NCBI GenBank assembly: GCA_006384855.1
Contig: VCJN01002354.1
Location: 1-64,000, forward strand
Reading direction: 5' to 3'
Source: Tetraselmis striata
Lineage: Eukaryota; Chlorophyta; Chlorodendrophyceae; Chlorodendrales; Chlorodendraceae
DNA length: 64,000 nucleotides
Under the pieces are notes generated by a model. The model did no database searches. It saw only the letters and a list, made by a program, of their open reading frames with translations, and was not told the DNA's origin. Position 1 is the first letter of the stretch. The number at the start of each line of letters is the position of its first letter. This document shows, piece by piece, positions 7,854-59,284 of this stretch. Made by a program: the position numbers and the translations under genes.

Positions 7854-7858
7854 GTTCT

Positions 7859-39178: not shown

Positions 39179-39271
39179 GTGGGTTGGACCCGCTGCACCT
39201 TTGTTGCCGTTGCGCACTTGTTACTTTTACGGCATGCTAATTGAGTCGCCATCGCACGTTGGCCCCCGCAG

Positions 39272-39640: not shown

Positions 39641-39790
39641 GTAAGAGATGCGGAAAAGGCGGGATGGAGGGCATGGTGGAGAGGGGGGGGGGGGGGGGAG
39701 GCTGGCCGTGCTGCGATATAATGTTGTGGTGCACCTTTGTATTTTTATACGGCTTGCTAATTATGTCGCCATTACACGTTCGACTGACAG

Positions 39791-42088
39791 CCCCCGACTC
39801 CAAAAACTAGCACGAGCAACGCACTCCCTGCCCCAGCTGCCGACGAGTTGCAGCCGGCCTTAATAGAAGCAACGCCAGTCGCCAAGGTGGGCGGCCGTGC
39901 TGCGATGTAAGGTTATCCTGGGCTTCAGTTGTTTTCGGCTTGCTAATTATGTCGCCATCGCACGTTCGACCCAACAGCCCCCAATTGCAAAAGCTGGCAC
40001 GAGCGACGCACCCCCTTGCCTTGCTGCCGACGAGTCGCAGCCGGCCTCAAATGAAGCGACGCAATTCGCCAAGGTGGACGGCCTTGCTGTGACGTAAGGC
40101 TATGGGTTATGGGCTCATGTAGTTTCCGGCTTGCTAATTACTATGCCGCCATCGCACGTTCCACCCACAGCCCCCGAGCGACGCACCCCCTCGCCTTGCT
40201 GCCGACGAGTCGCAGCCGGCTCGCAAGAGGCGCCGGGAGTCCCCAAGGTGGGTGACCTTACTGCGATGCTGAGTGTAAGGCTATGCTAGGTTGTTTCGTT
40301 AGTTTCCGACTTGCTAATTATGTCGCCATCGCACGTTCGTCCGACAGCCCCCGAGTGCAAAAGCTGGCACGAGCGACGCACCACCTCGCCTTGCTACCGA
40401 CGAGTCGCAGCCGGCTTGCAAGAGGCGCCGCGAGTCGCCAAGGTGGGCGGCCTTTCTGCGAGGTAAGGCTATGCTGGGCTGTTTCAGTTTTCGGCTTGCT
40501 AATTATAATGTCGCCATCGCACATTCGACCCACAGCCTCGAGTGCAAAAGCTTGCACAAGCGACGCATCTCCTCGCCCCCGCCAACGAGTCGCAGCCGCC
40601 CTCAAAAGAAGCGACGCACGTCGCCAAGGTGGTCGGCCTTGTTGCGACATAATGTTGTTGTCCACCTTTGCATTTTTATGGCTTGCTACTTATGTCGCCA
40701 TCGCACGTTCAACCCACAGCCCCCGAGCGACGCACCCCCTCGCCTTGCTGCCGACGAGTCGCAGCCGGCCTCAAATGAAGCGACGCCAGTCGCCAAGGTG
40801 GACGGCCTTGCTGTGATGTAAGGCTATGGGTTATGGGCTCATGTAGTTTCCGGCTTGCTAATTATTATGCCGCCATCGCACGTTCCACCCACAGCCACCG
40901 AGCGACGCACCCCCTCGCCTTGCTGCCGACGAGTCGCAGCCACCGGCGCCGGGAGTCGCCAAGGTGGGTGACCTTACTGCGATGCTGTAAGGCTATGCTA
41001 GGTTGTTTCGTTAGTTTCCGACTTGCTAATTATATCGCCATCGCACGTTCGTCCGACAGCCCCCGAGTGCGTCGCTCGTCGCTGGTGCTGGCACGAGCGA
41101 CGCACCACCTCGCCTTGCTACCGACGAGTCGCAGCCGGCTTGCAAGAGGCGCCGCGAGTCGCCAAGGTGGGCGGCCTTTCTGCGAGGTAAGGCTATGCTG
41201 GGCTGTTTCAGTTTTCGGCTTGGTAATGATAATGTCGCCATCGCACATTCGACCCACAGCCCCGAGTGCAAAAGCTTGCACAAGCGACGCATCTCCTCGC
41301 CCCCGCCAACGAGTCGCAGCCGCCCTCAAAAGAAGCGACGCACGTCGCCAAGGTGGTCGGCCTTGCTGCGACATAATGTTGTTGTCCACCTTTGCATTTT
41401 TATGGCTTGCTACTTACGTCACCATCGCACGTTCGACCCACAGCCCCCGAGCGACGCACCCCCTCGCCTTGCTGCCGACGAGTCGCAGCCGGCTCGCAAG
41501 AGGCGCCGGGAGTCGCCAAGGTGGGTGACCTTACTGCGATGCTGTAAGGCTATGCTAGGTTGTTTTAGTTAGTTTCCGACTTGCTAATTATGTCGCCATC
41601 GCACGTTCGTCCGACAGCCCCCGAGTGCAAAAGCTGGCACGAGCGACGCACCACCTCGCCTTGCTACCGACGAGTCGCAGCCGGCTTGCAAGAGGCGCCG
41701 CGAGTCGCCAAGGTGGGCGGCCTTTCTGCGAGGTAAGGCTATGCTGGGCTGTTTCAGTTTTCGGCTTGCTAATTATAATGTCGCCATCGCACATTCGACC
41801 CACAGCCCCGGAGTGCAAAAGCTGGCACAAGAGACGCATCTCCTCGCCCGCCGCCAACGAGTCGCAGCCGCCCTCAAAAGAAGCGACGCACGTCGCCAAG
41901 GTGGTCGGCCTTGCTGCGACATAATGTTGTTGTCCACCTTTGCATTTTTATGGCTTGCTACTTATGTCGCCATTGCGCGTTCAACCTACCCACATCCCCC
42001 CGACTGCTAGCTGCACGAGCGACGTACCCCCTCGCCTTGCTGCCGCATAGTCGCAACCGGCCTCAAAAGAAGCGACGCCATTCGCAAG
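39791..42088 (+). repeat. Array monomers 10-22 with 549-bp higher-order period
   Basis: Monomers at 39,791, 39,978, 40,171 (77 nt), 40,348 (95), 40,536 (93), 40,720 (78), 40,895 (69), 41,060 (107), 41,260 (93), 41,444 (77), 41,618 (95), 41,806 (95) and 41,996 (degenerate, with TAG). Types A (short), B (RRRESP end) and C (SQPPSKEATHVAK end) repeat in order A-B-C. The A-to-A distance is exactly 549 bp for 40,171 to 40,720 and for 40,895 to 41,444. Confidence 0.7.
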
Positions 42089-42176
42089 GTGGGCGGCCTT
42101 GCTGCAATGTATCCGTTGGTTCGACCGCAGGTGACTGCTACCTGCACGCGGAAATTATTTGACGAGGGGCAGCATA

Positions 42177-42669
42177 CCTTTGTAGCCGCCGAGGCATACA
42201 AAAATCGCCATTTAGTAGGGAGGCCTGAGATCACCGACTTGACCGCTTTGTAGTCGGCATATTCAGTGTGGCCGTCTTCGGCAGGAAGCCAGTGACTACC
42301 GATATGGTGTGGTTGTACCTCATCCTCAACCGGGGTGGGCCGTGGGGCGCCTGCAACAACCGTGTCGGAACGCCTAGCGCTGCCTTGCATGCCGGGGCTG
42401 CCTGCGGCACCCTCTTTAGACGCCACTACTTCGGCCAAAGACGCAGTGGGGCGCTGGGCACCCCCCCTTAACGACTCTTCCAAGGTCGCAACATCACGCA
42501 AGGCTGCCCCACGCGAGGAGACGGGCCGGCCAACGGCAGACCCGATACAACTTGTTGCCATCTCGAGAAGAACTTCCCTACTCATCATTCCCTCATGATC
42601 TTGAATGAGTTCCCGCACCTCCCCGAGTGCGGCGCGAAGTTCGTGTACAGCCCGCAAGGGGGAACCCAT
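42177..42669 (-). CDS. Hypothetical exon with coiled-coil start
   Basis: From a true ATG at 42,669 to a donor-like AAG|GTATGC near 42,176. It begins with a likely amphipathic helix (MGSPLRAVHELRAALGEVRE) and later has EVQPHHIGSHWLPAEDGHTE. The reading frame runs on into the exon array on the opposite strand, so the true 3' part is missing or spliced away. It lies next to the left end of the DIRS-like element and could be a truncated gag-like ORF. Not recognised. Confidence 0.35.
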
Positions 42670-42949
42670 ACTGACCCCGCAGCCCTACTTCCTACTTGTT
42701 TCAGCGAGAACTGTTAGGCAGGTGTGGGAAACGGAGAACTGCCCCGACTTCGCGGCAACCTACCTACCTACCTACCTTCGGAGAACCTGCCTCGACCCGC
42801 CGCCTGTGCCTCGTTCCGCCGCCACCAAGTGATCATGTACTTTGTGCCAGTACACGCGAACCCTAAAAACCAGCACAGGGTTTAAAGCTAGTAAATTGTC
42901 CCATTTTCAGTGAGTCATAAGTGAAGTATAGTGGCCTCTACCGTTTACG

Positions 42950-44037
42950 CTAGTATCTTGTCCCATTCCCGTGTTTGATGGCCGGCAAGGGGACGCCGAC
43001 GCAGCTTGCTGCGGAAGCGGCACCCTTGCGTAAACTGTGCGATGTCCACTTGAAACCGGTGGGAGGTCGGGCGCCTGCCGCCAGGTAGGCCTCCCGCAAC
43101 CACTCGGTAAGAGTGGCTGAACCGACCAAGTGGCAGAAGATTCCAGCGGGGAGATGCTCCAAAACTTGGGCGGCGGGCTGGCGCCGTAGAAACGGCGGCA
43201 GTAAGCGCCGCGACTGACGGTGTACCAGTCCAGCAGCTCAGCGAAGTCCGGAACGGCGGCGATGGGCAGATTCATCAGGGGCTTAGCGGAAACCCTCGTA
43301 CGCCGGTCGCCTTTCTGTTTGCGGACGTACAACAGAATGCCTCCGGACGGCCGGTCGACCACTAAATCACCGGTCTCGCAGCTAATGCCGGACTCCGCGC
43401 GGCACAGGAAGACGTACGCCGTAATCGGCGCGAGCGCGGCTCTGAAAGCGCGGATGTCCGCAATATTAGCGGGTTCCCACACCAATGTCTGCCGAAATCC
43501 AATCGCGGTGTTTAGGATGTCCGCCGCAACGGGCGCAGACAGGGCGACGCGGACGTCTTCTGCCGCAAGACGCTCTTGCTGGATGGCCAGGCCGCGGCGC
43601 GCGTCGGCCACCATTTCGCCGAGGGCGACAGGCTGGCGCTGATGGTCGCGGAAGTACTTGTTAATGGACGAGTGGTACTGTTGAAGGGACTCCGCGCCGA
43701 CGGTACCTTGCATGCCCAACCATGCAGTGTAGCGGACGATCGTGCTGGTAGTAGCTTGCAGCGGGCGTAAGCCCTCCTGCTCGCAGAAAGTAGCGAAAGA
43801 GCGCATGCCGCTGTCGTAGTTGCGGTAGGTGCCGGCAGCTAGCGAACCCGTAAGCAACCCGAGCGCCGCTTGACCAACGTCGTCGGTCCCCAACAAATAC
43901 CGGAGCTCGGCCGCCATCGATGCCGACCAGGGCGCCTCAGAGCCGGAGCGCACCGCAAGCCGGTAGCGCGCGCGTCGAGTGTGGGACAGGCGGCCCGGGT
44001 ACTGCACACTGTACTGCAGCGACGGCTGCACGGCCAT
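42950..44037 (-). pseudogene. DIRS-like tyrosine recombinase, frameshifted and 3'-truncated
   Basis: ATG at 44,037, eight bases after the RT-RNase H stop (44,046-44,048). The core-binding domain is clear (AAGTYRNYDSGMRSFATFCE, YTAWLGMQ, SINKYFRDH). The catalytic domain changes frame near 43,165 and then shows WTSHSLRKGAASAA, the H-x-x-R box. The end differs from the related recombinase at 57-59 kb: after IKHGNG the frame runs into the element's left end, so the catalytic Tyr segment is missing. Related to the 56-59 kb protein by the shared TTSTIVRYTAW / ATATVVRYVAW region. Confidence 0.7.
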
Positions 44038-44045
44038 AGCCCGGC

Positions 44046-44678
44046 CTAGCGACCCACGGCGGAGGTGCAGCCATGCCGGCGTGGTAGCCGAAAGGCCACG
44101 ACGCTCCAGCCGGGCCGTCCGACCCCCGCGCGCGTTCCCCGCCGCCCAGGAAAGAAGAGGTCGCGGGTAGGCGGGTAGACAATCGTCTCGGTGGCGAGGT
44201 CCTGCAGCAGCTGGTACCAACGCCGTCTTGGCCAGTGAGGCGCGATGACCGTGGCGGACGCGCCCGACTGTCGCAGTTTGTCCGCCAAATCGTCCAACAA
44301 ACCCCACGGGGGATTGCAATAATTGTGTTCCCTGCGCCAGAACTCGTCCGGCAAATGGAGAGAATCCACCGCTTCGCAATGCGGGTCGCGCCAGCGGGAA
44401 TTGTACTGTGGAAGTTGCGTATTTTCCATAGACGCAAATCTGTCGACGGTGTGCGGACCCCACAAGCGCTGCAGGTACGCGAATATCCGCGGATTGAGCT
44501 GCCAGTCGGAGTCGTCCAGCTCCCTGCTGAGTCGGTCCGCCCAAACGTTGGCTGCAGACTGGATGTACCGGGGCCTGATGTAGATGTCGTGAATATCCAG
44601 GAGGTGCCACAGCTTGCGGAGCTCCTCCATCATGACGGGCGACCGAGAGGTAAGGTTGGTTAGCGCCGCCACTACTGC
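44046..44678 (-). pseudogene. DIRS-like RNase H and downstream domain (3' part of RT ORF)
   Basis: Same frame as the RT part on the other side of the inserted LTR. It starts in the RNase H C-terminal part and continues with IYIRPRYIQSAANVWADRLS, GPHTVDRFASMEN and HNYCNPPWGLL ... VIAPHWPRRRW, the conserved block that follows RNase H in DIRS and PAT elements. Ends with TAG at 44,046. Confidence 0.75.
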
Positions 44679-44683
44679 CGTGT

Positions 44684-45500
44684 TGTTACAGCCCCCTTAG
44701 GACTTAGGCCGAATAGTCGTCTAGCCATAGATAGTCCTAAAGCAGGAGCTGTGTCGAGGGCCCATTGGATCGTTATTCCACACGGCCAGGAATAATGAGC
44801 GGAGAGTTGGGAAAAGGGATTCTTACAATACCGGAATGCCGGTAACCTGGGTGACTGGCCCGGCGGTGGTTTTGCCGGCCTATTTATAGTCGCTGGTTTC
44901 CGTCATTCCGTGCGCTGCGTATAGAGTCCAATTTCCACCACTTGTGCTGCGTGTAACTACTATACTAATACTAAAATCGACGTGTGCGGTCCAAACCCGC
45001 GGCCCGTCGCTATTTTAGTAACACACAGCTAAATACAGACAGGTTGCTAGCACCGTCGATATAATATTTATATCTACTATTGCTATAGCAAATGCTATAG
45101 CGTTCTAGATGGTTCTAGTAGGCTCTAGCTACTACTACTAACACTCCACTAAGGCAGCGCTCCATCATCTCACGCTTGGTATCATCATCCTCTATTAACA
45201 GGTGACACCATAGCGTACGACAATCGCGCTCCTGCTGGTACGCAGGCGTAAGTACAGGTTACTCGCACCCCATGTGGGTACTCGTAATACTGTCCTGCAC
45301 TACTAGTCGCCTGGTAGTCGCTCGTACTGACGCCTCGTCGTCCTCGTACCAGTACTTCGCCTTCACTTGTACTCGCACTCGCAATGCTCATACTCGTACT
45401 TCGCTTGGCTTGTACTCGTTCTCGTCCGCCTCAGTCGCCAGTTCTTCGCTCCTTCGTCGGCTCCCGCAGTACAAAGTACAGCAGTGTAGAGTACATAACA
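44684..45500. mobile_element. Solo LTR of the 1.9-kb family, 5-bp TSD
   Basis: 817 bp from TGTTA to TAACA, homologous along its full length to the LTRs at 1,864-7,853 with scattered differences. Flanked by CGTGT on both sides (44,679-44,683 and 45,501-45,505). It lies inside the RNase H domain of the DIRS-like element. LTR plus duplication add 822 bp, a multiple of three, so the frame is the same on both sides, although the LTR itself contains stops. Confidence 0.92.
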
Positions 45501-45505
45501 CGTGT

Positions 45506-46907
45506 TGTCCTCGTGCAACAAGACGCGCCGTCCTCGGAGCTGCGGCAGGAACGATTCGACCGCGTGACGTACCGCGCGAAGCTCCTTCCACGTGATGTGA
45601 TGCGAGCGGTCGTCCTCGTACCAGAAGCCGCGCGCCTGGTAAGCGCTGTTGTTGTTCAGCACAGCCCCCCAGCCATACGAGCTGGAGTCCGCGTGCAGAT
45701 ACGCGGTCTCCACAGGCTTGTATATAGAGCGACCGTTGTGCTGCGCAGGTACTTGGGTCCACCATTCTAGGTCGCGGCGCAGCTGGTTTGTCATCTTGAC
45801 GCGCCCGCCCCAGCCCTGCCGGGTTGCGAGGACGCAGTGCAGCTCTCGCAAAAAGAAACGGGCCGGCGTAACTGCCAAGTACAGGAACTGCGCCTTGCCC
45901 GCAAAGGACGCCAGCTGCCGAGCTGGGAGCCAGCGCTTGTTGGAGGTTGCTCGGCCAAGGAGAGAACGGGCGGCCTTGGCTAGCGCGATGAGCTTCTCCT
46001 CGGGGGCGCGGAACTCGCCGCGCTGCAGCTCGATGATCAGGCCCAGGTGAGGGCCGACCTGGGTGGGCTCCCAGACTCCCTTGTTGGGGTTGCGCAGCAG
46101 GCCCAGGCGGTCCAGCAAGGTGCTTAACCGGACGAGTAGCTCCAGGGCTGTCTCGCGGGAGTCCGCGAGGAAAAGGAAGTCGTCCATATAGGGTAGGAGC
46201 CGCTCGCCCCGCCAGCGAGTGTTGCGCATGAAACGGCGCGTAGGCTTGGACGGGGCCGTGGGAGCCAACGCTGGGTCGCGCCGCTTCAGGGGCGTCCGCA
46301 GGTAGTCCGTAAAGGCCGCCGTCAACTTGCAGAAGTAGTACGACGAGCCTGTCCAACCCATCGGTAGGCACGCAAGTCGCCACAGCTCCCCTCGGTAGTT
46401 CACGGTAAAGAAGTCGCGGTCCTCCTCCCGAATCCCAAGGGCGTAGTAGCCATCGGCCAGGTCCATCGACACGAACCAATCTCCCACGCGCGCAAGGTGC
46501 CGCAGGTGCTTGAGCGTTTCGTAGGACATCGTGAAAGTCTTGTACCACTTGTTGAGCTCCCGTAGGTCGATGATGAGGCGCCACTTGTTGGTACCGGGCT
46601 TGGGGACTAGAAACATTCTGGATACCCACTTGTTGCAGTGTCCTCGCTCCCACGCGCCAATCGCCTCGAAGCGGGGCAGTGCTGTAGCCATGAAGTCCAG
46701 TTGTGCCTGAGTGGCGTCGCGCATAGAGACGCCGTGGTTGTAGGGGCGAGGGCGTCGCCCGTTCTTGAAGCGTATCCGGACCCCTTGGCGGATCCAACTC
46801 AAGACTTGCCCGCTCGCGCCGATGCTTTCCCAGTCGCGCCATCTTCTCCGCACGCGGTGTCGCATGTAGAGGGAGGTAGGCGTACATGAGTCGGCGCGGC
46901 GGGCCAC
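45506..46907 (-). pseudogene. DIRS-like reverse transcriptase and RNase H (5' part)
   Basis: Minus strand from an ATG at 46,907. RT landmarks: WVSRMFLVPKPGTNKWRLII (motif 1-2), SMDLADGYYALGI (motif A), LPMGWTGSSYYF (motif B), LPYMDDFLFL (YxDD box, YMDD, catalytic) and HLGLIIELQRGEFRAP (motif E). RNase H begins at YLHADSSSYGWGAVL and reaches LLHEDN just before the inserted LTR. The ORF start overlaps the gag ORF end by about 109 bp in another frame. The RT itself looks intact up to the insertion. Confidence 0.88.
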
Positions 46908-47503
46908 ACCGTCATTTGGTGACCTTGCTTGGCCTTGGCCTTGTCGGACGCTGCGGCTGCCGCTGCGGCCTTCCGCGCTGCAGCGGCTTGCTCGCGTTGC
47001 TTGCGCCTCTCGGCGGACTCTGTGGGGGCGGGCTTGTCGGGGGTAGCCTTGGCGAACGCGGCCGCGGCACGGGCCTTGCCGGCTGCGGAAAGGCTGATCT
47101 CGAGGGTCTTGTCGTCGAACGCTCGGCGGAGTTGGTCGAGTTGCCCGGACACGGCGATGCGCCGTGGGGTGCAGAACTTTGCGTGGGCGAGCTCGGCGAA
47201 AACGCGGTCCGCCTCTGTAGCCGTTGGTCCATTCTTGGCGAGCTGGAGGTAGCCCAACCGGGAACGGGTGGCCTCCTCCGTCGCCAAGTGGGTGCGGTAG
47301 CAGGCGCGGAGCTCGGCAAGGGCCGCAGCCTTGCTTGCAGGCGTAGCAGACTCGGTCGAAAGCGACTCCAGAGCGCCGCGCATCGCCTCGTTGGCGCAGC
47401 TACTGAAGACGGCATAGCAGCCTAGGTGCAGGTATTCGTCGTACGCTGCCTGACTCCGCTTCTCCGCGAGGGCGCGGGCGGTGTCGTCGGTCAGGGTCCA
47501 CAA
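46799..47503 (-). CDS. DIRS-like gag-like ORF, C-terminal part
   Basis: 234 codons, helical and Ala/Lys/Arg-rich, with QAAYDEYLHLGCYAVFSSCA, LAELRACYRTHLATEEATRS and a highly charged tail (AERRKQREQAAAARKAA). No zinc knuckle. It overlaps the RT ORF by 109 bp. The first codon shown is not ATG; the protein continues upstream across a G-run. Confidence 0.6.
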   Translation of the reverse strand: MWTLTDDTARALAEKRSQAAYDEYLHLGCYAVFSSCANEAMRGALESLSTESATPASKAAALAELRACYRTHLATEEATRSRLGYLQLAKNGPTATEADRVFAELAHAKFCTPRRIAVSGQLDQLRRAFDDKTLEISLSAAGKARAAAAFAKATPDKPAPTESAERRKQREQAAAARKAAAAAAASDKAKAKQGHQMTVWPAAPTHVRLPPSTCDTACGEDGATGKASARAGKS

Positions 47504-47940
47504 GCGGGGCTCGTCGACGTCGCGCGGGGGGCGCTCCAGACCGGGGGGGGGGGAGGGACTCGGCCGTAGTAGGCAAAGTCGACGTACTCGAGCTCGTTGT
47601 CGGGTGCGTCTAGCTCAGCAGGAAGGGGCTCTTGCGCTCCTTGCTCACCACCCTCGGGCGCAGACGTGCCCACGGGGTTGGCTGGCTGGGTGCCTTCGGG
47701 AGGAAGCGGGTTAGTGGGGGGGGGGGGGGGGCGAGTCGAGCGAGCAAGGCAGCCGTAGCAGCCTCAAACTGCCCGGCCAGCCGCTTCTCCAGGGCTTCCG
47801 CTTGGGCCGTCAGGCGTTTTTCCAATTCCGCGACAGATGCCGCCGTGGCGCCGCCCGGGCGTCGTCCACTAAGGCGTCTTCCGGTACAGGGCGAGGGGGC
47901 ATCCTGCTGTCGCGGGGTGGGGAAGGTGTAGCGTCTCGGG
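47491..47940 (-). pseudogene. DIRS-like gag N-terminal part, broken at G-runs
   Basis: Two overlapping frames: one with EKRLTAQAEALEKRLAGQFE (coiled coil) and one with DAPDNELEYVDFAYYGRVPP. They are separated by poly-G runs at about 47,717-47,731 and 47,547-47,558, where length changes shift the frame. Confidence 0.5.
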
Positions 47941-48012
47941 AGGATGAGGCTCGGGTCCGAGTCGGCATAGAGTAAGCTGACACTCTGCTCGACTGCTAGA
48001 GTCGAGACTGCT

Positions 48013-48186
48013 TGCGCGAGCCGGTTGAGGCGAGCGCAAAGCAGAGAGTGCCTGTGCCCGAGGGTGGATCCCTCAGGTCGTAGTGCTGGTGCGGGCCGGC
48101 AGGCCTTATAGTCCGTGCGCCGACCTCGGGGGTCGTGCGCAGTACAACATAGCTAATGTACTGTAAACCTCTAGATGACTACATCT
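48013..48186. repeat. Copy of the 35,863-36,035 block
   Basis: gcgagccggttgaggcgagc through cctctagatgactacatct, with only a few differences from the first copy and the same orientation. It sits at the right edge of the DIRS-like element and is probably part of its terminal region. Confidence 0.8.
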
Positions 48187-48197
48187 GACCATATAAT

Positions 48198-49596
48198 TAC
48201 ATGAGCTAGCAGCAGAAGGCGATATCGGAAATCACCAAAATAAAAGGCAATCAGAAAGGTCCTCTACATCGACTGCGGGGTGGAAGCAGTAACATGAGAA
48301 GACGCAGAGTGGGCACGAGCACACGCATCAGACTTGGCCATCTGCACACCGGCAGAGAGAATGCCGCCCAGGGTACCATGCACGCAAGCCGAGACCCGCT
48401 GCAACAGCCCCCGCCGTGTGCGCGACAGGTGACGGCGGAACTCAGCATGTTGGCCGGCGACAAAGTTTCGAAGTGCCTGAACGGATTGACCACGAAGAAA
48501 GCAAGAGGTCGGGGCGGAAGGACCGCCAGGGAAGTTGCGCACAGCCAACAGCACCGCGAAGATGTAGACCACAGTCAAAGCGGACTTCCCGAGTCGGCCG
48601 CGGTCCTCAACCACAAAAGGGTAGTACCGGTGAACACCCTGCACTGGGGCGGAAGACGCCCGGTCCGCTGCCAACTTAGCATGCTCCGCCTCGGTCGCCG
48701 CGATTCCCGGGATGCACCAGCGGGGGTCGTTGCTCCAAGTGGGGGTCGTGGAGGACACGCACGCGAAGTCGATCATGTAATCGCACGCTGCCCCTCCCCA
48801 CCCCGCCAGCGTCAGGTCCGACGGCCGCGAGCGGTCCGCTGGGCGCAGCCCACTCGTCTCAAGGGTCAAGTCGCCGGCTCCCGAGCGGTCCCGGTCAAGC
48901 ACCGCCCCCGCATCAATTGCCACAGATGCCCACAGATTCTTCAAAGCGGTATGCATGCGGTGCTTGTAGTTCGCTACGGGGCATATGGGTAGATGATCCA
49001 CGATGAAATCCGTAGCGCTCCGGTTCGAGCCATCCGTAGAGCGAAGCCATAAGGGATCAATACCACACGTTGGGCCAGGGCAAGTGACAAGCGCGGAACC
49101 TCCGCGCGGGCAAAGGCCCAGTACCCGCGCAACGGCGGCCGCATAAGCAGCATGGGGAATCTTGCGGGCGGACTCGTGATCCGACTGGAAAAGCGATAGG
49201 GAGCCCGGCCCGCACGCGCTGTACAGGCGCAGGGTATCAAGTCGCGAGGCCGCTGCACCAGTACGTTGGAAGCTGAGATCGAGGGCCACGAAGTCACGCA
49301 AGCGAATCGCACGGCCGAGGTGGCGTTGGACAACCATGGTCGTGGGTTGATCATCGGAGGTCGCACCCGAACCCGTACCCGAGGGCGGAGCAGTAGAACC
49401 TGGCAGCGATTCTGGGAGTGAAACAGTGGCTGCTGACGGAGGGTGTGCCACTAATTCGCCCGGCGACGGTATCTTCAGAGCTACAAAAGCGCATGTAGTA
49501 ACGGTATTGGCAGTACTCGTACCACCGATAGGAAGCAATTGCTGGGCAGCAGAGGCGGCCTCACCAGTACCAACTCCAAGAGGAGTGGCCGTAAAA
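48198..49596 (-). mobile_element. 5'-truncated R2-like element copy 2, 11-bp TSD
   Basis: Homologous to 12,926-14,340 of copy 1. Flanked by GACCATATAAT at 48,187-48,197 and 49,597-49,607. Truncation at the 5' side and a precise target duplication are the signature of target-primed reverse transcription. It inserted next to the 48,013-48,186 block. Confidence 0.88.
48264..49596 (-). CDS. R2-like C-terminal polypeptide, open frame
   Basis: About 440 codons open from the truncation point to the stop at 48,264. It shows the full linker, Cys/His knuckle (CPRGGSALVTCPGPTCGIDP ... HLPICP) and endonuclease-like region (RPSDLTLAGWGGAACDYMID ... VVEDRGRLGK) without the frameshifts seen in copy 1. The RT is absent because of 5' truncation, and there is no native start codon. 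It is the better template for defining the family. Confidence 0.7.
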
Positions 49597-49607
49597 GACC
49601 ATATAAT

Positions 49608-50023
49608 GCCCTCGCCGTGTGCTAATACCATGAAAGTACTTGTGTACGAGAATACATACAGGTACGCCGCGTGTACACGTCATGCTGACGCGGACAACCC
49701 TTATTTGCCAGGTACTAGGGTGAATTACAGAAAGGCCGGTAACAAATCCACCAGCACTTATACAGCAGTACCAGTACTGACTAAAAGATTAATACGTCAG
49801 TACGTATAGCAAGCAGCGCCGCGCCTATATAAAAGCGGGACGTACCCGCACCCGTACCCACGACTGCAGCAGCTGATGAGCGCGCGCGCTACCAGTACTA
49901 TATCCATACTGCTCGTCGATCGTAGATTCGTAGTCGTCGCGCGCGCTAGTACCGTCGATGAACTATACGACGACTACCGGTACTGGCACTGGTATGTAGC
50001 GCGGATTACAATAAGGCCGTTTT
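49608..50023. other. Spacer
   Basis: Rich in tac, gta and cgtac words (accagtactgactaa, gcgcgcgctaccagtac). No gene seen. Confidence 0.5.
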
Positions 50024-52593
50024 GATCTAAACGTGTTTATGGGGTTTCCTGACGGACTGAATCTGTCCTAGTGCGACCCGTACGGTCTGTTAGTGGTTTC
50101 AAGCGTTTAAGTAACTGCTCCCATCGGGTTTTGGTACGGACTGCCCCATCGCCCGCGAGCCCTGCGCTCCCGGCCAGGGAGCTGCTTATTAGGACAGCCA
50201 CCAGCAGCTCGTCTGCCATCTTCGAGCTCGCGCGATCGCTGCCTTCGGCAACGCCTTCGCGTACTAATTGTGCGTGCGAGGGTCATAGAGGCTGAACAAG
50301 TCTGCACCGAGGTTCATCCACCTGGTATTGAGTCGTCGTGCCGCGCACATTCGTTACAACATCAGACAGAGACAGACAACCCCTCGGTAATGTGGGTTTC
50401 CCTACACGATCGTGCGCCCGGGGGCGTTTTCCGTTTTTGCCATGGCTTTGCAGCTGGGACGTTTTTGGGTAGCGATGCGCACGGCAAGAAATTATAGATG
50501 GGGGTTTCCCGTTGGGTGGTTTAAACCTCAATACCCGAAGTCGATTCGCAGTACATGCCTTCGGGGCTCTCGTAGTGAAGCGCCCTCTCGCAGTAGCCAA
50601 CTCTGACTTGAGGTTTAGGTGAGGTGGACGCGCTTGGCACCATGGCCGCTGCTCGTCACGGTTGTCAACGACGACAACTACGCCCACCGCAACAAATCGG
50701 CGCGGACGGAGGAGGACATCGAGGACGTCCGTGTCGTCGGGGCGACCACTTGTTGGCCCGCAAGACACTGCAACCCAGTCCGCGTGTCCTTGCAACATGG
50801 CGTCGTGGCATCAACGGTCGTTACATGCTGTGGTTTTCCGGAACTACTCGCGAAATTGGTATGTTACGGGGGTGGCGCCGCTCATGCGCCGGTGTTTTGA
50901 GAGGGCTCGTTGCCCTCGTCCCAATCATGCGTCAGCAACGTTTGTTGTGGTCGCAGTGGGAGGCGTTTGTGTGGCTCGTGCCGATGCGTCTCCGACCTCC
51001 TACTGCAACGTCATCGTCACAAGGACCACGACAACATGCAACTGCCCGCCGGGGGGCAGCTCTACCACCTGTCGTGCCTGGCGTCTCATGGTGTACGTAA
51101 CTACCCCTGGTCAACTCTGGGTTTGGAACCTACCTCGGCGACCGTCGCTGGTGCATCAGCAGCGGCTCCCTCGTCGTCACCCTTGCCCCGACATCATTGG
51201 CATCGTTACGGGCCGGCATAGATAGGCCACAAGGGCCTCTATGCCGGCCAACCCGCTTCCAACGTCACGGCAACGCCTCTGTGACAATACGAGCTGCCCG
51301 CCGGGGGAAAGCTCCGCCACCTAACGCGACTTGTGCGTTTCGTGGCATCATCCTTAGCCGGCGCTTTGCGGGGTGGTCAACAACCGTCGCTGGTGCAGCA
51401 GCGGCGGCCGGCTCACCGCTCTTCGCGAAGAAAAACCCACGGCGACAGCTTACTGAGTAGGCGGGTCTTCTGCGACGTCGCCGACAACCGACCCCGACAC
51501 ACCTAAGAGCCGGTACGACACGACCACACAAGGTCCCACGTTCCCGCGCCCCTCGGCGTTGTGCGTTTCACTCGCCGCTCTTCGCGCAAAGGGGCGAAAC
51601 AACCACCGCTGGTGATGGCTGCAACATTACATAGCTGTCTTCGCGCGTTGATGCGTGTCCACCCCTCGTAACGTGCATCGCCAGTACATGTACATAGTTA
51701 CCATCGCGTCGGGTACATCGTGCCAGTACTTCAACTAGCTGTACGCGGCGCGCTCGCGCTCTCGTGCACGCAACTGCACACGTCCTACTGTGCCACTGCT
51801 TTGATGGGCGCTCGTCGCCAACTTGGCCACTTCTACCCCTGCTTCTACTGGTCTGCAGTTCTGGCTCGTGCCGCACGTCACCATGGCGCGCGGTCAATGC
51901 TAATATAGGGCACCGTCGGGAGACGGCGCCTTGATTCCGCGACACGTACTGCATATGTGATACCGGGGTCAACATCTCCCGTCCGCGTCTAATGCGCCTC
52001 CGCCTCGATCGAGGACCTCTCGGCGCGAGACCCCTTCTACAACTCAAGCACGACATCTTCCGCCTTCATCTGGTCGGCACGACTGCCGACTGCCTACGCT
52101 CGCAATCGTAAACGAACCGCGTGTAAACTGGCAAAACCAGACTCGGATGCATGATTGAAATGATCTCAACGTGTTTACGGGGTTTCCTGACGGATTAAAA
52201 CTGTCCTAGTGCGACCCGTACGGTCTGTTAGTGGTTTCAAGCGGTTAAGTAACTGCTACCGTCGGGTTTTGGTACGGGCTGCCCCAGCCATCGCCCGCGA
52301 GCCCTACCTGCGCTCCCGGCCGGGGAGCTACTTAGGACAGCCACCAGCAGCTCGTCTATCTGCCATCTTCCAGCTCGCTGCCTTCGGCAGCGCCCTCCCG
52401 TTTTCCGCCTCCGCCCTGCGGGCTCCTCCTCCGACATCCCCTCCCCTTTCGCTGAACCTTCCTAGCATTTTTTCGCCCCCGGGACAGGACTGGCACCAGT
52501 GAAACCCTTCCTAGCCATACAATGGCGCTTTTACGTGTAAAAACGCCTCCGCACTCTTTTTGGCAAAACCAGACTCGAATGCATGATTGCAAT
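50024..52593 (+). mobile_element. Split-direct-repeat element 1, no intact ORF
   Basis: A1 starts at 50,024 (gatctaaacgtgtttatggg). B1 (tggcaaaaccagactcgg..., 52,129-52,161) abuts A2 at 52,162, and B2 lies at 52,561-52,593. This is the A1 ... B1-A2 ... B2 order of Ngaro/PAT-type tyrosine-recombinase elements. The inner 1.8 kb has only broken frames with repeated cgtcg and acaac words, so it is a non-autonomous or decayed member. Confidence 0.65.
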
Positions 52594-52977
52594 AACAAAT
52601 CCACCTGTGAAAGCAGTACCGGGGTACTTTCATAAGAGCAATACAACAAGCCGCTTGGTGTTGAGACTACATGTATGATCTAAACGTGTTTATAGGGCTT
52701 CCTCCCTTGACCTAGCCGCTTTTCAGCTACAAGTGCTGCTCAATGGTACGGGAACTAGGCACATGTTGTTGCGCCCTTCTTGGGTGCAACACGAGTAGAC
52801 ATAAAAGCAGCCATAACAGCTGAGCTTGCCATCTTCCAGTTTTCATTGCGTTACACGCAACGATGTCAAAACTGTCTCGTAACATGGTGCGAGCAAGGTC
52901 ACCCCAGGTTGTTCAAGACCACACCCGGCTCACCACCCGAGCGTGATATTCTCATCCGTACGTCCGTGCGTTACCAT

Positions 52978-53851
52978 GTCAGATGGAGAAGAACCCGTCG
53001 TTGAGCCAACGCTCGAATCGCTACAAGGAGACGTGAAGGCCCAATCTACACTGCTGCGCGAGCTTACAACAGCGTTGACCTAATTGATCGCTCGTGACCG
53101 TGTTGTTGATTGAGATGGGGCACATGGCTCCGGTTCCGGGCAGCGCATCGCGGGACAGCCGACAGGCAGCGGGGGAGCCGCAGAGCGCCCCGACTTGCTA
53201 GAGCTAACCCAGAGCGGCCGTGTCGGAGCAAAATCCGCGAATGACGAGGATGACTACCTCGCGGTGCCAGAGCTACTGCAGAGAGCAGAGTCTGGTTACG
53301 AGGCCGTTCGACCGTTCAGCCGAGTGCCGGGACTCTTCCCCCTGAGCACCGACCTAACGTACGAGTACCTCAAGCAGAATGACCGGCGTCTGCCGGCCCA
53401 GGAGGAGTATTTATGGATGTCATGTTTCGGCGCCCACATGGCCGCACTTTTCGTAGCTCTCGACGAGCTGTTGCCCTACGTCCCTGCTGCAAGTCGGGAC
53501 TTCACCCCGTACCTCGCGCGAGCTCGGAACCACGCCGAAGCCATCGACAAGGCGTTTCGCTCTCGTTTGGCCTTCCTACGGAGGCTTAATGAGGTCAAGC
53601 GTGTGCACGGTGACCAAGGTGTTCTGGACGTGCTGCGAGCCCATCACTTTCAGCTTGCTTCTGAGCATCTGGGTTCTGCGATTTTTGGGGACCTCATGAG
53701 GGACTAAGAGCGTCGCGTCTTCGCGGCGACAGTTGCCAGCAACGCAAAAGCAACCGCTACTGCTTGGGTAGCGGCAGCGGCTGCATGGCGCGGGCGTGGA
53801 CGAGGACGTGGTGGTGGACGCGGGCGTGGCAGCGAGGGTGAGCACGAATGA
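52978..53851 (+). pseudogene. Degenerate gag-like gene of element 2
   Basis: Aligns with 56,362-57,237. Starts ATGTCAGATGGAGAAG as in element 3. Stops occur early (TAA at about 53,081, TGA at about 53,113) and where the intact copy has Tyr (TAA at 53,705). The terminal context gag-TGA-CGG is conserved at 53,849-53,854. Confidence 0.75.
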
Positions 53852-53972
53852 CGGTGTGGGGCGCCTTTCGTCGGAGCTGCTAGAGCTTTGCGAGGCCATC
53901 TGTCGGTGACCGCCTCAAAGCGCACCCCGGCAGCTCAACGACGGGATGAGCGCCTTATTGTGTCAGGACCTG

Positions 53973-55520
53973 CCCCCCCCCCCCCCCCCCCCCCCACCTT
54001 ACAGACTTCATTTAGACCTTCCTCGGTGCGGCGCTTCTTACAACTATAGCCGAGTGCGGTTCAACCATCCGCATATCTGCACATGGCGGTTCAGCCAACC
54101 GCCACCCGTACCATTTCATCACTCAGTCAGCGTCCGTCGGTTGTCACACCGCGTGTTACAACTGGTTCGCAACGACCAAGCTTCGCGCGCGTACGTTACG
54201 CGCGTGACATGCGCTACGAGCGCGAAGGGCGCGTGGGGCGGCCCTCTTACCTGAACCTAGCCCCGCAAACCCGTAGTGGTGATGTTGCAAACCCTTCCAG
54301 CAACTACCGGCCAACCGCCGGGAACCTAACCGCTGCTGCCGAGTTTGCTAACAATGTTATTAACCTAACTTTGCTAACAATAGTCGCCCCCCTGTCAATC
54401 TGCCGGTGAAGCGGCGTACTTACGTAATTGACGAGCCCGAAGCCGTCGCGTCCTACGCTGCTTCACTGCGATCTCGACTGCATGATGCTTTCGGCTCAGA
54501 CGAGTTAGGTAGGGCAGCGGATGCTCGTTATGCTCTCCAACTCTCTCACCGCTCAGACACTCAAGATGAGTTACGCCGGCAGACTCTCCCAGTTCGCGGA
54601 GTTCTGCCCACTGGAGGCGACCACTGCTACTGTCGTCCGGCACGTCGCCTGGATTGGTGAGCGGGGACACATTGGGGCTAAGTCGCTGCAACTCTACCTC
54701 TCTGCAATCAACACGTTCTTCGAGCTGCTCAACCTCGACCCAATCGCCAAGGACAGCCTACACCTTACTGCAGCTAGGCGTGGGCTGATGCTGCGGCAGC
54801 GCCGTCTGAAAGCCGCCCCTTTGCGAGTTTCTCTGCCTGCTGATGTAGCTTACAGCTTCGTCGAGCGGGCCGAGTCTGCTCCCGAGCCCTCGTGGCATCG
54901 GTTTTCAACTTCATGTTCTTTGCCAATGGACTTACTGGCGTGTCCTGCCGAGTGCGGGATGTGCATGTCGACGATTACACCAGTACCCTGCAGGTGTACC
55001 GCGAGAAAGGTCGCGCTGGCCGACGGCGGGGTCCCGACGACCTGCGCATGCTTCTCCTTTCGGTGTCAGATCACCCCCGAGTTGCACGCCTCATGCACCA
55101 CTTCATCGACCACGTACAGTCTGTCCTCGTGGCTCCAGTTGCCTTGGCCGAAACAAACTTCTGAGCGGTCACCCCAAGCGAGCAGTCCAAATCTTGGACC
55201 GCCGCTACAATGTCGGACTGGCTGTCTGCAGCCGTTCGTCTTGTCGGTGCCGCCCCTCCCGCCGGCACTTCCTGGACCTCACACAGCCTTCACAAGGGAG
55301 CAGCGTCTGCCGCTAACGCCATCGGAGCTCCGTTGTCCCACATTCGCTACCAAGGCGGCTGGGCCACTAACTCCGACGTCGTTCTGGACTGCATCGACCC
55401 CAACGTTCTTCCTTCACCTGGCGCATGTTGGTTCTTCTTTGGCCATATCGCGCCCCTCCGCCACTTCCAAGTCCAATAGGACTCCGCAGCGGTGGCCTTC
55501 CCGGTGCCTCCTTCATGACA
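53973..55520 (+). pseudogene. Degenerate tyrosine recombinase of element 2
   Basis: Several frames cover the homologue of 57,360-58,899. A seven-base C run of element 3 has grown to 23 (53,973-53,995). Active-site residues are lost: the second catalytic Arg box reads SHSLHKGAA instead of SHSLRKGAA, and the catalytic Tyr codon is TGC (VVLDCIDP instead of VVLDYIDP). Confidence 0.75.
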
Positions 55521-56063
55521 TGGCGCTACCCCTTCTCCGTCAATCCGCCGCTCTCTCCGTTCGCTCATGACTGGCAAAACCAGCTCAACTTTGAAATGAT
55601 CTAAACTAGTTTATGGGGTTTCCTCGCTCCCTTGTCCTGACCGCTTTTCAGCTACAAGTGCTGCTCAGTGGTACGGGAACTAGGCACCTGTTTTTGCGCC
55701 CTTTTTGGGTGCAGCACGAGTAGACATAAAAACAGCCATAACAGCTGAGCCTGCCATCTTCCAGTTTTCGCTGCGTTACACGCAGCGCCCCCTCTGACTC
55801 CGTTTTCCCTCCACTCTTTCACTTTATACCTTCCTGCCAATTTCGGCTCTTGATAGTGTAAAACAGCCTGCGCGATCGTTTTGGCAGAATCAGACAACTT
55901 TGAAACGACTGCTGTAATATTTTATGTGTTTTACTGAGTAGTACACGTGGCAATACCCAAACCAGCACAACCCCCTAGCAGACAAGGATTGGATTTTATT
56001 TCACTTTATCGCCATGTTTTATTTAAACATCAACGTAGAGGGCCGCCATATTAATAAAAATAT

Positions 56064-56248
56064 GATCTAAACTAGTTTATGGGGTTTCCATCCTTGACCT
56101 AACCGCTTTTCAGCTACAAGTGCTGCGCAGTGGTACGGGAACTAGTAACTGTTGTTGCGCCCTTGTTGGGTGCAGCACGAGTAGACATAAAAGCAGCCAG
56201 AACAGCTGAGCCTGCCATCTTCCAGTTTTCGCTGCGTTCCACGCAGCG
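56064..56248 (+). repeat. A1 split direct repeat (185 bp)
   Basis: gatctaaactagtttatggg to acgcagcg. Matches A2 at 58,980-59,164 along its whole length. Contains the terminal 8-bp-arm hairpin at 56,230-56,248. Confidence 0.9.
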
Positions 56249-56361
56249 ATGTAAAAACTGTCTCGTAACCCGTTGCGAGCAAGGTCACCCCAGGTTGTTC
56301 AAGACCACACCCGGCTCGCCACCCGAGTGTGATATTCTCGTCCGTACGTCCGTGCGTTACT

Positions 56362-57237
56362 ATGTCAGATGGAGAAGAACCCGTCGCTGAGCCGACGCTG
56401 CAGTCGCTGAACGCAGATATGAGGGCCCAGTCTTCATTACTGCGAGAGTTGGCTACAGCTGTGGCACAATTGACGGCTCGTGATCGCGTTGTTGATGGAG
56501 AAGGGGCACATGGCTCCGGCTCAGGGCAGCGCTTCGCGAGACAGCCGACAGGCAGCGGGGGAGCCGCAGAGCGCCCCGACTTGCTAGAGCTAGCCCAGAG
56601 CGGCCGTGTCGGAGCAAAATCCGTGAGTGCCGAGGATGATTACCTCGCGGTGCCAGAGCTACTGCAGAGAGCAGAGTCTGGTTACGAGGCCGTTCGACCG
56701 GTCAGCCGAGTGCCTGGACTTTTCCCTTTGAGCACCGACCTAACGAACGAGTACCTCAAGCAGGATGACCGGCGTCTGCCGGCCCAGGAGGAGTACTTGT
56801 GGATGTCGTGTTTCGGGGCCCACATGGCCGCCCTTTTCGTGGCGCTCGACGAGCTACTGCCCTACGTCCCTTCCAGCAACCAGGACTTCACCCCCTACCT
56901 CGCGAGAGCCCGGAACCACGCCGAGGCCATCGACAAGGCGTTTCGGTTTCGTTTGGCCTTCCTACGGAAGCTCAATGAGATCAAGCGTGTGCACGGTGAC
57001 CAAGGTGTTCTGGATGTGCTGCGAGCTCAGCATTTTCAGCCTGCTTCGGAGCACCTGGGTTCCGCGATCTTTGGGGACCTCATGCGGGACTACGAGCGTC
57101 GTGTTTTCGAGGCGACCGTTGCCAGCAGCGCCAAGGCGACCGCTACTTCTCGAGTGGCGGCTGCAGCTGCAGGTCGCGGGCGTGGGCGAGGACGTGGCGG
57201 GGGACGTGGACGTGGCCGCGAAGGTGAGCACGAGTGA
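56362..57237 (+). CDS. Gag-like protein of the RT-less element
   Basis: ATG at 56,362, TGA at 57,235-57,237, 291 residues. The N-terminus is a likely coiled coil (LNADMRAQSSLLRELATAVA). The middle (about residues 90-255) is helical and contains EYLWMSCFGAHMAALFVALD, DFTPYLARARNHAEAIDKAF and HLGSAIFGDLMRDYERRVFE, a capsid-like pattern seen also in the broken copy. The C-terminus is an RG-rich tail (GRGRGRGRGGGRGRGREGEHE region) that could bind RNA in place of a zinc knuckle. The next codons after TGA stay open in the same frame into the recombinase ORF. Confidence 0.7.
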   Translation: MSDGEEPVAEPTLQSLNADMRAQSSLLRELATAVAQLTARDRVVDGEGAHGSGSGQRFARQPTGSGGAAERPDLLELAQSGRVGAKSVSAEDDYLAVPELLQRAESGYEAVRPVSRVPGLFPLSTDLTNEYLKQDDRRLPAQEEYLWMSCFGAHMAALFVALDELLPYVPSSNQDFTPYLARARNHAEAIDKAFRFRLAFLRKLNEIKRVHGDQGVLDVLRAQHFQPASEHLGSAIFGDLMRDYERRVFEATVASSAKATATSRVAAAAAGRGRGRGRGGGRGRGREGEHE

Positions 57238-57240
57238 CGG
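57235..57240 (+). promoter_or_regulatory. Candidate UGA-CGG readthrough site
   Basis: The only stop between the gag-like and recombinase frames is TGA followed by CGG. The frame is unchanged on both sides. UGA followed by CGG is a known leaky context in several viral readthrough sites. The degenerate element 2 keeps the same TGA CGG. No stem-loop was verified downstream. Confidence 0.5.
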
Positions 57241-58899
57241 TGTGGGGCGCCGTTCGTCGGAGCTGCAGGAGCCTTGCGAGGCCACCTTTCGGTGACCGCC
57301 GCAAGGCGCACCCTTGCAGCTCAACGACGGGATGAGCGCCCTGTGTCAGGACCTGACCCCCCCACCTTACAGACTTCATTTAGACCTTCCTCGGTGCGGC
57401 GCTTCTTACAGCTACAGCCGAGTGCGGCTCAACCATCCGCACACCTGCACATGGCGGCTCAACCATCCGCCTTTCTTACAACCCCATCTCTGCGTTCGTC
57501 GGTTGTTACACTACGAGTTACAACCGGTTCGCAACGACCAAGTTTCGCGCGTGTACGTTACGCACGGGACAGGCGCTATGAGCGCGAAGGGCGCGCGGGG
57601 CGGCCCTCCTACCTGAACCTAGCCCCGCAAACCCGTACTGGAGCTACTGCAAACCCGTCCAGCAACTACCGGCCAACCGCCGGGAACCTAACCGCTGCTG
57701 CCGAGTACTTTGCGAACAGTAGCCGTCCCGGTGGCACTCTGTCAGTAAAACGACGCACTTACGTAATCGACGAGCCCGCAGCTATCGCTCCGTGGGCTGC
57801 GTCACTGCGATCCCGACTACAGGACGCGTTCGGCTCAGACGAGCTAGGCCAGCGGACGCTCGACCTGCTCTCCAGCTCCCTCAGCGCTCAGACCCTCAAG
57901 AGCTACGCTGGCAGGTTGGCTCAGTTCGCTGAGTTCTGCCACGACTCCGAGAACATCAGCCCGCTAGAGGCGACTACTGCTACTGTTGTTCGGTACGTTG
58001 CCTGGATCGGGGAGCGAGGGCATATCGCAGCTAAGTCGCTGCAGCCCTATCTGTCTGCCATCAACACCTTCTTCGAGCTGCACAACCTCGTCCCGATCGC
58101 CAAGGACAGCCTACACCTCACTTCGGCAAGACGTGGGTTAATGTTACGTCAGCGTCGACTGGACGCTGCCCCTTTGCGTGTCCCTCTGCCTGCGGATGTA
58201 GCTTACCGCTTCGTCTCAAAGGCCGAGCTAATTGTGTCTGCTCCTTACCCAGAGTCCCACCTCGACTACCGAGCCCTCTTGGCCTCGGTTGTCAACTTCC
58301 TGTTCTTTGCCAGGGGCCTTACTGGCGTCTCCTGTCGAGTGCAAGATGTGCATGTCGACACCTACAACATCACCTTGCAGATCTACCGCGAGAAGGGTCG
58401 CGCCGGCCGGCGGGGACCTGACGACCTGCGCGTACTTCTCCTTCCAGTGTCCGAGCACCCTCGAGTGGCACGTCTCTTGCGCTACTTCATCGACAACGTC
58501 CAGTCTGTCCCCCTGGTTACTGTTGGCTTGGCTACCTCCAACTTCTGGGCTGTCAATGTGGCTGAGCAGTCGAAACCTTGGACTGCTACTACGATGTCAG
58601 ACTGGTTGTCTACAGCAGTCAACCTAGTCAACGCCGCCCCCCCTGCTGGCACTTCCTGGACTTCACACAGTCTACGCAAGGGCGCAGCCTCTGCAGCAAA
58701 CGCCATTGGAGCGCCACTGTCCCACATCCGCTACCAGGGCGGTTGGGCCACTAACTCTGATGTCGTTCTGGACTACATCGACCCCAACGTTCTTCCTTCT
58801 CCTGGCGCGTGGTTCTTCTTTGGACACATCGCCCCTCTCCGCCACTTCCAAGTCCAACAGGACTCCGCAGCGGTGGCCTTCCCAGTGCCTCCTTCATGA
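57238..58899 (+). CDS. Tyrosine recombinase of the RT-less element
   Basis: Open from the gag stop to TGA at 58,897-58,899. If translated on its own, the first ATG is at about 57,451. The N-terminal ~150 residues are basic and disordered. Core-binding domain: LSAQTLKSYAGRLAQFAEFC, ATTATVVRYVAWIGERGHIA, LSAINTFFEL. Catalytic domain: first Arg in GLTGVSCRVQDVHVD, a Lys-bearing strand LQIYREKGRAGR, then the H-x-x-R box SHSLRKGAA (His codon 58,666, Arg codon 58,675), GGWATNS (the His/Trp position) and the nucleophile VVLDYIDP (Tyr codon 58,774-58,776). All catalytic residues are present. Recombinases of this group integrate circular DNA without target duplications. Confidence 0.85.
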   Translation, partial: RCGAPFVGAAGALRGHLSVTAARRTLAAQRRDERPVSGPDPPTLQTSFRPSSVRRFLQLQPSAAQPSAHLHMAAQPSAFLTTPSLRSSVVTLRVTTGSQRPSFARVRYARDRRYEREGRAGRPSYLNLAPQTRTGATANPSSNYRPTAGNLTAAAEYFANSSRPGGTLSVKRRTYVIDEPAAIAPWAASLRSRLQDAFGSDELGQRTLDLLSSSLSAQTLKSYAGRLAQFAEFCHDSENISPLEATTATVVRYVAWIGERGHIAAKSLQPYLSAINTFFELHNLVPIAKDSLHLTSARRGLMLRQRRLDAAPLRVPLPADVAYRFVSKAELIVSAPYPESHLDYRALLASVVNFLFFARGLTGVSCRVQDVHVDTYNITLQIYREKGRAGRRGPDDLRVLLLPVSEHPRVARLLRYFIDNVQSVPLVTVGLATSNFWAVNVAEQSKPWTATTMSDWLSTAVNLVNAAPPAGTSWTSHSLRKGAASAANAIGAPLSHIRYQGGWATNSDVVLDYIDPNVLPSPGAWFFFGHIAPLRHFQVQQDSAAVAFPVPPS

Positions 58900-58952
58900 C
58901 TTGGCGCTACCCCTTCTCCGTCAATCCACCGCTCTCTCCGTTCGCTCAAGAC

Positions 58953-59284
58953 TGGCAAAACCAGACTCAACTTTGAAATGATCTAAACTAGTTTATGGGG
59001 TTTCCATCCTTGACCTAACCGCTTTTCAGCTACAAGTGCTGCGCAGTGGTACGGGAACTAGTAACTGTTGTTGCGCCCTTGTTGGGTGCAGCACGAGTAG
59101 ACATAAAAGCAGCCAGAACAGCTGAGCCTGCCATCTTCCAGTTTTCGCTGCGTTCCACGCAGCGCCCTCCCTGACTCCGTTTTCCCTCCACGCTTTTCGC
59201 TAAACCTTCCTGCCAATTTCGGCTCTTGACCGTGTAAAACAGCCTGCGCGACCTTTTTGGCAAAACCAGACTCAACTTTGAAAT
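58953..59284 (+). repeat. B1-A2-B2 right end
   Basis: B1 58,953-58,979 (tggcaaaaccagactcaact plus ttgaaat), A2 58,980-59,164, an 93-bp spacer, then B2 59,258-59,284. Confidence 0.88.

Follow-up and report, generated by a model that had tools for sequence, protein, structure and literature searches.

A candidate reverse transcriptase-less family of tyrosine recombinase retroelements in the green alga Tetraselmis striata

Retrotransposons with a tyrosine recombinase (YR) are described, in the excerpts of the literature considered here, as carrying gag, a reverse transcriptase (RT) with RNase H (RH) and the recombinase, with SIRE as the exception (PMC4157794, PMC3266345, PMC8547959, PMC6681497). 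The element reported here lies at positions 56064-59284 of a 64,000-nucleotide (nt) stretch of the Tetraselmis striata genome (contig VCJN01002354.1, C1898 in our numbering; hereafter the window). Among described systems, the PAT-like chlorophyte elements TOC3 and Kangaroo likewise show the repeat order A1..B1A2..B2, a gag-like open reading frame (ORF) without a zinc finger, a YR and a green-algal host in the excerpts of PMC4157794 and PMC3266345; unlike them, the T. striata element has no match to RT, RH or methyltransferase, and its gag and YR adjoin across a UGA-CGG sequence. Ngaro and VIPER-like elements have their repeats in this order too, with identical pairs in some copies, and possess Gag-like and YR ORFs, but encode RT/RH, and no readthrough signal is mentioned for them in the excerpts of PMC8547959 and PMC6681497. 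Cryptons resemble it in having a YR and no RT, whereas their terminal repeats are of 4-6 bp or absent, and neither a gag-like ORF nor split repeats are mentioned in the excerpt of PMC3212892. SIRE, a short derivative of VIPER, is RT-less, spans A2-B2 and may need help in trans according to the excerpt of PMC6681497; in contrast to the short and truncated SIRE, the T. striata element keeps gag and YR under selection.

No published family of RT-less gag+YR elements was recognised in the excerpted literature on YR retroelements, algal PAT elements and readthrough, a scope with Repbase and most subscription literature outside it. Among long terminal repeat (LTR) retrotransposons, the TR-GAG elements are non-autonomous and keep gag without RT and without an integrating enzyme of their own, and Chlamydomonas TOC1 is an RT-less relative.

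The order A1-X-B1A2-Y-B2, that is, split direct repeats (SDR), was confirmed for the element, all parts of which are on the forward strand. A1 (56064-56248; 185 nt, or 187 nt with the preceding AT) is identical to A2 (58980-59164), and B1 (58953-58979), which abuts A2, is identical over its 27 nt to B2 (59258-59284), the right end of the element; the repeat comparison bears out the first-pass annotation of the window, which had given this order and the identity of the 185-bp and 27-bp copies. The 93-nt Y spacer between A2 and B2 (59165-59257) contains a TGTAA motif at 59233, which we take to be similar to an algal poly(A) signal and which each of the window's three SDR elements has at the equivalent position. 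The long repeats (185 and 27 nt) set the element apart from Cryptons. ORF and domain scans gave no RT match inside it, a Pfam scan gave no RH and no adenine methyltransferase match, and Rfam at gathering scores together with a tRNA scan found nothing.

Both ORFs reported earlier between the repeats were found. ORF1 (56362-57237, forward strand) encodes 291 residues with an RG-rich C-terminus and ends with TGA; no zinc knuckle was seen by eye and no Pfam gag domain matched, and the protein is called gag-like from its position, its RG-rich tail and the shared architecture. The YR ORF (57238-58899, forward strand) is in the gag frame and open from the UGA; it is also listed from 57274, and its first ATG is at 57451. 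Its product has a SAM-like N-terminal domain (Phage_int_SAM_1, E-value 6.5e-8) followed by a catalytic domain (Phage_integrase, E-value 0.0013, below the cut-off), so that the element carries a tyrosine recombinase in place of an integrase. The recombinase had been credited with all catalytic residues: HxxR, W and Y do align with Cre, while the first R and the K were placed by eye only. The best-scoring proteins among the matches listed are Tetstr1/TSEL gene models (identity up to 100% over part of the query); no relatives were found in viral contigs, prokaryote genomes or phages, and 34 matches to a 15-base pattern were taken as chance.

Directly upstream lies an older, decayed gag+YR copy (52677-55905, forward strand) with the same A1..B1A2..B2 layout, ~84% identity and in-frame stops. 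Comparison of this old copy with the young one at 56064-59284 gave pN 0.066, pS 0.295 and pN/pS 0.22 for gag, and pN 0.090, pS 0.420 and pN/pS 0.21 for the body of the YR (pN and pS, proportions of nonsynonymous and synonymous differences). Both ORFs are under purifying selection, and the constraint is if anything underestimated, because neutral decay of the old copy adds part of the divergence.

The element belongs to a large family in the genome assembly searched (224,097,584 bases). The exact 35-nt B-A junction has 643 genomic copies (324 + 319), with none for a reversed-pattern control, and a 27-mer spanning the gag stop with four free bases occurs at 799 sites (407 + 392; control 0); as exact matches, the junction counts are lower bounds. 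The 80 scored YR matches (best of 7684 candidates) are 98-100% identical and the 134 scored gag matches (best of 4774 candidates) 99-100% identical, the window copy being included in both. A listed gag ends exactly 40 nt upstream in 58 of the 80 listed YR matches; of the remainder, one has a gag at a distance of 3243 nt, and for 21 no gag is among the matches listed. Given the 643 exact junctions, the 799 gag-stop sites and the near-identical gag and YR matches, the RT-less gag+YR elements are a lineage and not one deletion, in agreement with the earlier proposal of a lineage with its own gag and recombinase: there are hundreds of copies, many nearly identical, with both ORFs under selection. 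A unique deletion or an assembly duplicate is ruled out by the differing flanks of the copies and by the 643 junctions. When 82 of 100 listed junctions were compared with 99 of 100 listed stop sites, an exact gag stop lay 1.6-1.8 kb upstream in 42 of the 82 (contigs up to C385) and at 5.0 and 6.6 kb in two; the 38 with none within 8 kb may be mutated copies or non-coding derivatives.

The search of the genome for the repeats, the two proteins and any RT between them, suggested in the first-pass annotation, yielded no RT-bearing copy of this family among the matches listed. No gag or YR match listed has any of the 69 scored RT matches (best of 6800 candidates) within 6 kb, contrary to the possibility, raised at the outset, that all other copies carry RT, and no RT match falls between gag and YR in the 58 pairs at fixed distance. 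The same holds for gene models: 194 of the 256 listed match both gag and YR, with at most 77 residues between the two matches and no RT match there. Of the 17 long gene models listed, 13 match both proteins side by side and four only one, none having an RT between gag and YR; P0080 and five of the 17 were rescanned with Pfam, the rest being judged from a precomputed domain column and adjacency. Three gene models with RT-like sequence were set aside as joined to a neighbouring element: P0080, with an RT (Ty3 type by our own reading) N-terminal to gag and not between gag and YR; P0243, with an RT match below the cut-off (E-value 2.2e-5), also N-terminal to gag; and P0072, which starts, before gag, with a piece 62% identical to the RT-RH ORF of the RT-bearing family described below.

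The repeats were compared in the 30 best-scoring YR loci (L035-L064; L038 is the window's own copy), a sample that leans to intact copies because it was chosen by score. In all 30, two stretches match the initial 30 nt of A with no more than two errors, and in 28 the repeats A1 and A2 show 0-2 differences over 185 sites; the exceptions are L035, with 39 differences at the end of A2, and L042, with 133. Exactly two copies of B are present in 27 loci, three in one and one in two, and 26 of the 27 two-B loci have a length of 3221-3226, counted by script from two bases before GATC; identity of B1 and B2 is claimed for the window copy only. In the 28 copies without L035 and L042, A1 and A2 show three differences in 28 x 184 sites (first, target-derived base excluded), and the T just 5' of A is invariant between them. 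The family has been mobile very recently.

A single UGA (57235-57237, forward strand) splits the frame shared by gag and YR and is followed in the young copy by 553 open codons. Type II readthrough, as described in the excerpt of PMC3542737 for RNA viruses, uses UGA-CGG or UGA-CUA, mostly with an extended stem-loop ~8 nt downstream. The T. striata site resembles it in having UGA-CGG and a predicted RNA hairpin, a candidate stimulator of readthrough, at 57244-57342 (forward strand); here readthrough is predicted, the stem starts 6 nt after the UGA, and the effect would be to append the recombinase to gag. For the stretch 57229-57360 the predicted folding energy is -70.7 kcal/mol (z -4.07), a value that none of 200 shuffles equalled; in a scan of 312 windows across the element, the lowest energy belongs to the one that starts at 57244. 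A shorter piece, 57238-57300, has an ordinary fold (z 0.49), so the full hairpin is needed. By these predictions the site has the sequence features of type II readthrough, UGA-CGG with a 3' stem-loop.

Conservation of the site was followed in several sets of sequences. Among the gag-stop sites displayed, the stop is TGA in 56 of 57 and TCA in one, the preceding base varying in eight, in a search whose pattern itself fixed the CGG after the stop. The 30 best-scoring loci have TGACGG in 28 cases and TGATGG in one, the last being unread by the pattern. Gene models crossing the site in another frame have S, N or I before Asp-Gly in 66 of 66, which fits TGA-YGG without forcing it, Asp-Gly being required by the search. 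Between the UGA and the YR ATG, 17 of 213 sites have diverged between the young and old copies, with little codon-position bias, whereas synonymous sites of the ORFs have diverged by 0.30-0.46; such a pattern would be expected of an RNA element. The old copy has one stop in this stretch; since 18% of mononucleotide shuffles also keep the stretch open, its openness in the young copy is by itself weak evidence.

An RT-bearing family of similar layout is present in the same genome, and one of its copies, overlooked in the first-pass annotation, lies in the window at 35741-48195 (reverse strand). This copy is split by insertions at 44687-45500 and 36230-42970 and retains A1 (48013-48195), RT-RH (within 45501-47399) and pieces of the YR (within 44686-42971, with a frame change near 43.12 kb, and 36229-36109), its right end lying beyond the 6.7-kb insertion; over three pieces it is 94.6-97.0% identical to copy L095. 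The insertion at 44687-45500 sits inside the RH; the RT ORF continues into this insertion, and its terminal part recurs at 2537-2671, 5128-5262 and 7719-7877. Copies L095-L097 are ~4.9 kb long and consist of A1 (181 nt), B1 (27-30 nt), A2, Y (91-95 nt) and B2, with A1 and A2 98-99% identical and long open frames. Counted from stop to stop, the ORF before the UGA has 355 codons in L095 and in L096 and 293 in L097, and it ends in UGA-CGG-UGU-GG, in common with the RT-less gag. The YR follows in the gag frame, and an RT-RH ORF of 849 codons lies in an overlapping frame. The RT is recognised by RVT_1 (E-value 9.7e-12) and has YMDD; RH matches are below the cut-off, as is a weak match to Dam, an adenine methyltransferase (E-value 0.0067). 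With its RT-RH and this weak Dam match, the family fits the PAT-like group as excerpted from PMC4157794 and PMC3266345. The wider stop context is found in 29 of 30 RT loci, and in 12 of these 29 the gag frame has no further stop within the locus. Here too the RNA downstream of the UGA has a significant fold (z -3.40; 0 of 200 shuffles as good).

The YRs of the two families are 39% identical over ~350 residues (E-value 1.7e-75); the A repeats are unlike, and the B repeats have only the short TTTGGCAAA in common. The RT-bearing B-A junction has 105 exact genomic copies, against 643 for the RT-less family. The shared layout, UGA-CGG, hairpin and gag/YR frame, together with the homologous YRs, argue for common descent, while the wide differences in YR and repeats argue against an origin of the RT-less lineage by recent deletion from this RT family. 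Since the cited YR retrotransposons carry RT, SIRE excepted, loss of RT-RH is the simpler direction.

Of the two older relatives that the first-pass annotation had placed directly upstream of the young element, one is the decayed copy at 52677-55905; the other, at 50024-52593 (forward strand), is a third SDR element with repeats in which no gag, YR or RT was detected. Its likeness to the RT-less family is confined to the start of A, the core of B and the end of Y, and perhaps for this reason it may be mobilised by the YR of that family. It has its own A1 and A2 (11 differences in 181 sites) and its own B1 and B2, and beyond the first 25 nt its A is largely unlike that of the RT-less family. 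At 52677-52693, A1 of the old copy starts like the A of this third element, nt 10-12 being GTG and not TAG, whereas A2 of the old copy starts like the A of the young family; template switching is a possible source of these mixed starts.

The young element probably represents an RT-less, semi-autonomous family of YR retroelements whose PAT-like ancestor, of the form gag-UGA-(RT-RNase H)-YR, lost RT-RH; RT would now act in trans. The loss would have left gag and YR in one frame. Transcription would run from A1 to a poly(A) site in Y, giving an RNA without B2 and part of A1. Translation would yield gag and, by readthrough of the UGA aided by the downstream hairpin, a minor gag-YR fusion through which the recombinase may enter gag particles. 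The likeliest source of RT-RH in trans would be the RT-bearing PAT-like family that shares the genome; such borrowing is plausible, because that family is present with long open frames and with A1 and A2 98-99% identical in L095-L097. A terminally incomplete RNA can have both ends regenerated from B1A2, and the internal B1A2 would serve as template here, restoring both ends and giving a circle with a B-A junction, as suggested by the near identity of A1 and A2 and by the existence of B2-A1 tandem junctions. Two exact head-to-tail junctions of the B2-A1 type were found in the RT-less family and one B2-A1 tandem in L097 of the RT family. The element's own YR would then integrate this circle, with no duplication of the target and a loose preference for G-[T/A]-T-N: no target-site duplication was seen by eye in the listed flanks, and outside the element the second base is T in 21 of 28 copies and the fourth base G in 18 of 28 (raw counts, with no background control). 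The repeats, the alikeness of A1 and A2 in the third element despite its unlike A, which supports one template for both, the selected gag and the presence of a helper in the genome support an RNA route with RT in trans, and movement as DNA is less likely.

Several observations weigh against this reconstruction. Concerted change of A1 and A2 is not evident in the old copy, where the two differ at 17 of 186 sites: they agree with each other against the young A at seven sites, while only one of them agrees with the young A at 16. The young copies are too invariant for a comparison of concerted evolution. Three of the 40 hairpin pairs break in the old copy, 37 still standing; the old sequence by itself folds less stably (z -1.90, a value reached by 6 of 200 shuffles), and the shuffle control for covariation is uninformative with two sequences. 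Units with a spacing of 2916 nt, found at C2249 and also at C348 (there from the coordinates of junctions and stops), could come from unequal exchange between A1 and A2. No spliced genomic copies were found for two introns of the gene models with up to three mismatches, leaving the RNA step without independent proof, and recognition of the RT-less RNA by the helper can only be inferred, because the A repeats are unlike and the likeness in B is short. ORF1 and its counterpart in the RT family gave non-significant scores in profile, pairwise and profile-profile comparisons, with shuffled sequences scoring equally, and in 17 of the 29 RT-family loci the gag frame is closed again by another stop within the locus. 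A separate observation on spacing comes from G000:C764:26382-34410 (forward strand), where three near-identical YR copies are spaced exactly 3203 nt apart, near but not equal to the full element length.

Other explanations can be set against the same evidence. The element might be a DNA-only transposon whose YR cuts out a circle and inserts it in the manner of Cryptons, with ORF1 as a DNA-binding helper and the split repeats as a by-product of tandem insertion at the B-A site, an A-X-B circle entering beside an A-Y-B unit to give A-X-B-A-Y-B. The missing RT, the complete YR and the units spaced 2916 nt apart would suit this, and it has been proposed that Cryptons, DNA elements with a YR only, move as circles, though the excerpt of PMC3212892 gives them terminal repeats that are short (4-6 bp) or absent. 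Insertion beside a resident unit would not be expected to leave A1 and A2 near-identical in 28 of 30 copies, or alike in a third element whose A is otherwise different; selection on ORF1 and the existence of an RT-bearing family with equal layout and UGA-CGG also speak against it, and we regard this explanation as unlikely. That a large, self-maintaining family has abandoned RT altogether, the readthrough gag-recombinase fusion and the split repeats copying and inserting the element by an RT-free route, is likewise unlikely; if true, split direct repeats would not be a device of retrotransposons only.

Non-autonomous derivatives are a usual outcome in mobile elements, and the RT-less copies might have arisen by simple deletion from an RT-bearing family whose gag, YR and repeats they share, that family supplying everything in trans. 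The junctions with a gag stop at 5.0 and 6.6 kb or none within 8 kb (two and 38 of 82) leave some inserts unexplained and so give this idea room. It seems very unlikely all the same, with none of the 69 listed RT matches closer than 6 kb to the gag and YR matches listed, 13 of the 17 long gene models having both proteins adjoining and none an RT between them, an RT-bearing family that differs in its repeats and has a YR of only 39% identity, and selection on gag and YR, unexpected if these were supplied in trans. Whether gag and YR are joined by splicing instead of readthrough is a question raised by the public gene models, which skip the UGA (one such cluster comprises 92 member sequences) and imply introns that, by our own reading, have GT-AG ends in the window sequence. 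Splicing would require a second intron that, also by our reading, cuts conserved gag and shifts a stretch into another frame; it leaves unaccounted for the conservation of the UGA itself and the same UGA-CGG with a hairpin in the RT family, and no spliced copy is present in the genome. We hold it to be improbable.

Elsewhere in the window, 48264-49631 (reverse strand) and 12942-13661 are repeated sequence. The ORF at 48264-49631 (455 residues) has no Pfam match, and its product is partly like the N-terminal part of a chimeric gene model, P0245; it is perhaps another retroelement. A satellite-like array occupies 40800-42111, with a spacing of ~188-192 nt in 41500-42111 and extended to 40800 by eye.

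A successful RT-less family that keeps gag and integration while outsourcing reverse transcription would separate the functions required in cis from those that can be shared, and the RT-less and RT-bearing families of T. striata would form a natural pair for the study of trans-complementation. How recombinase is loaded into the particles of YR elements is poorly understood, and the gag-UGA-YR signal suggests a way in which this may be achieved.

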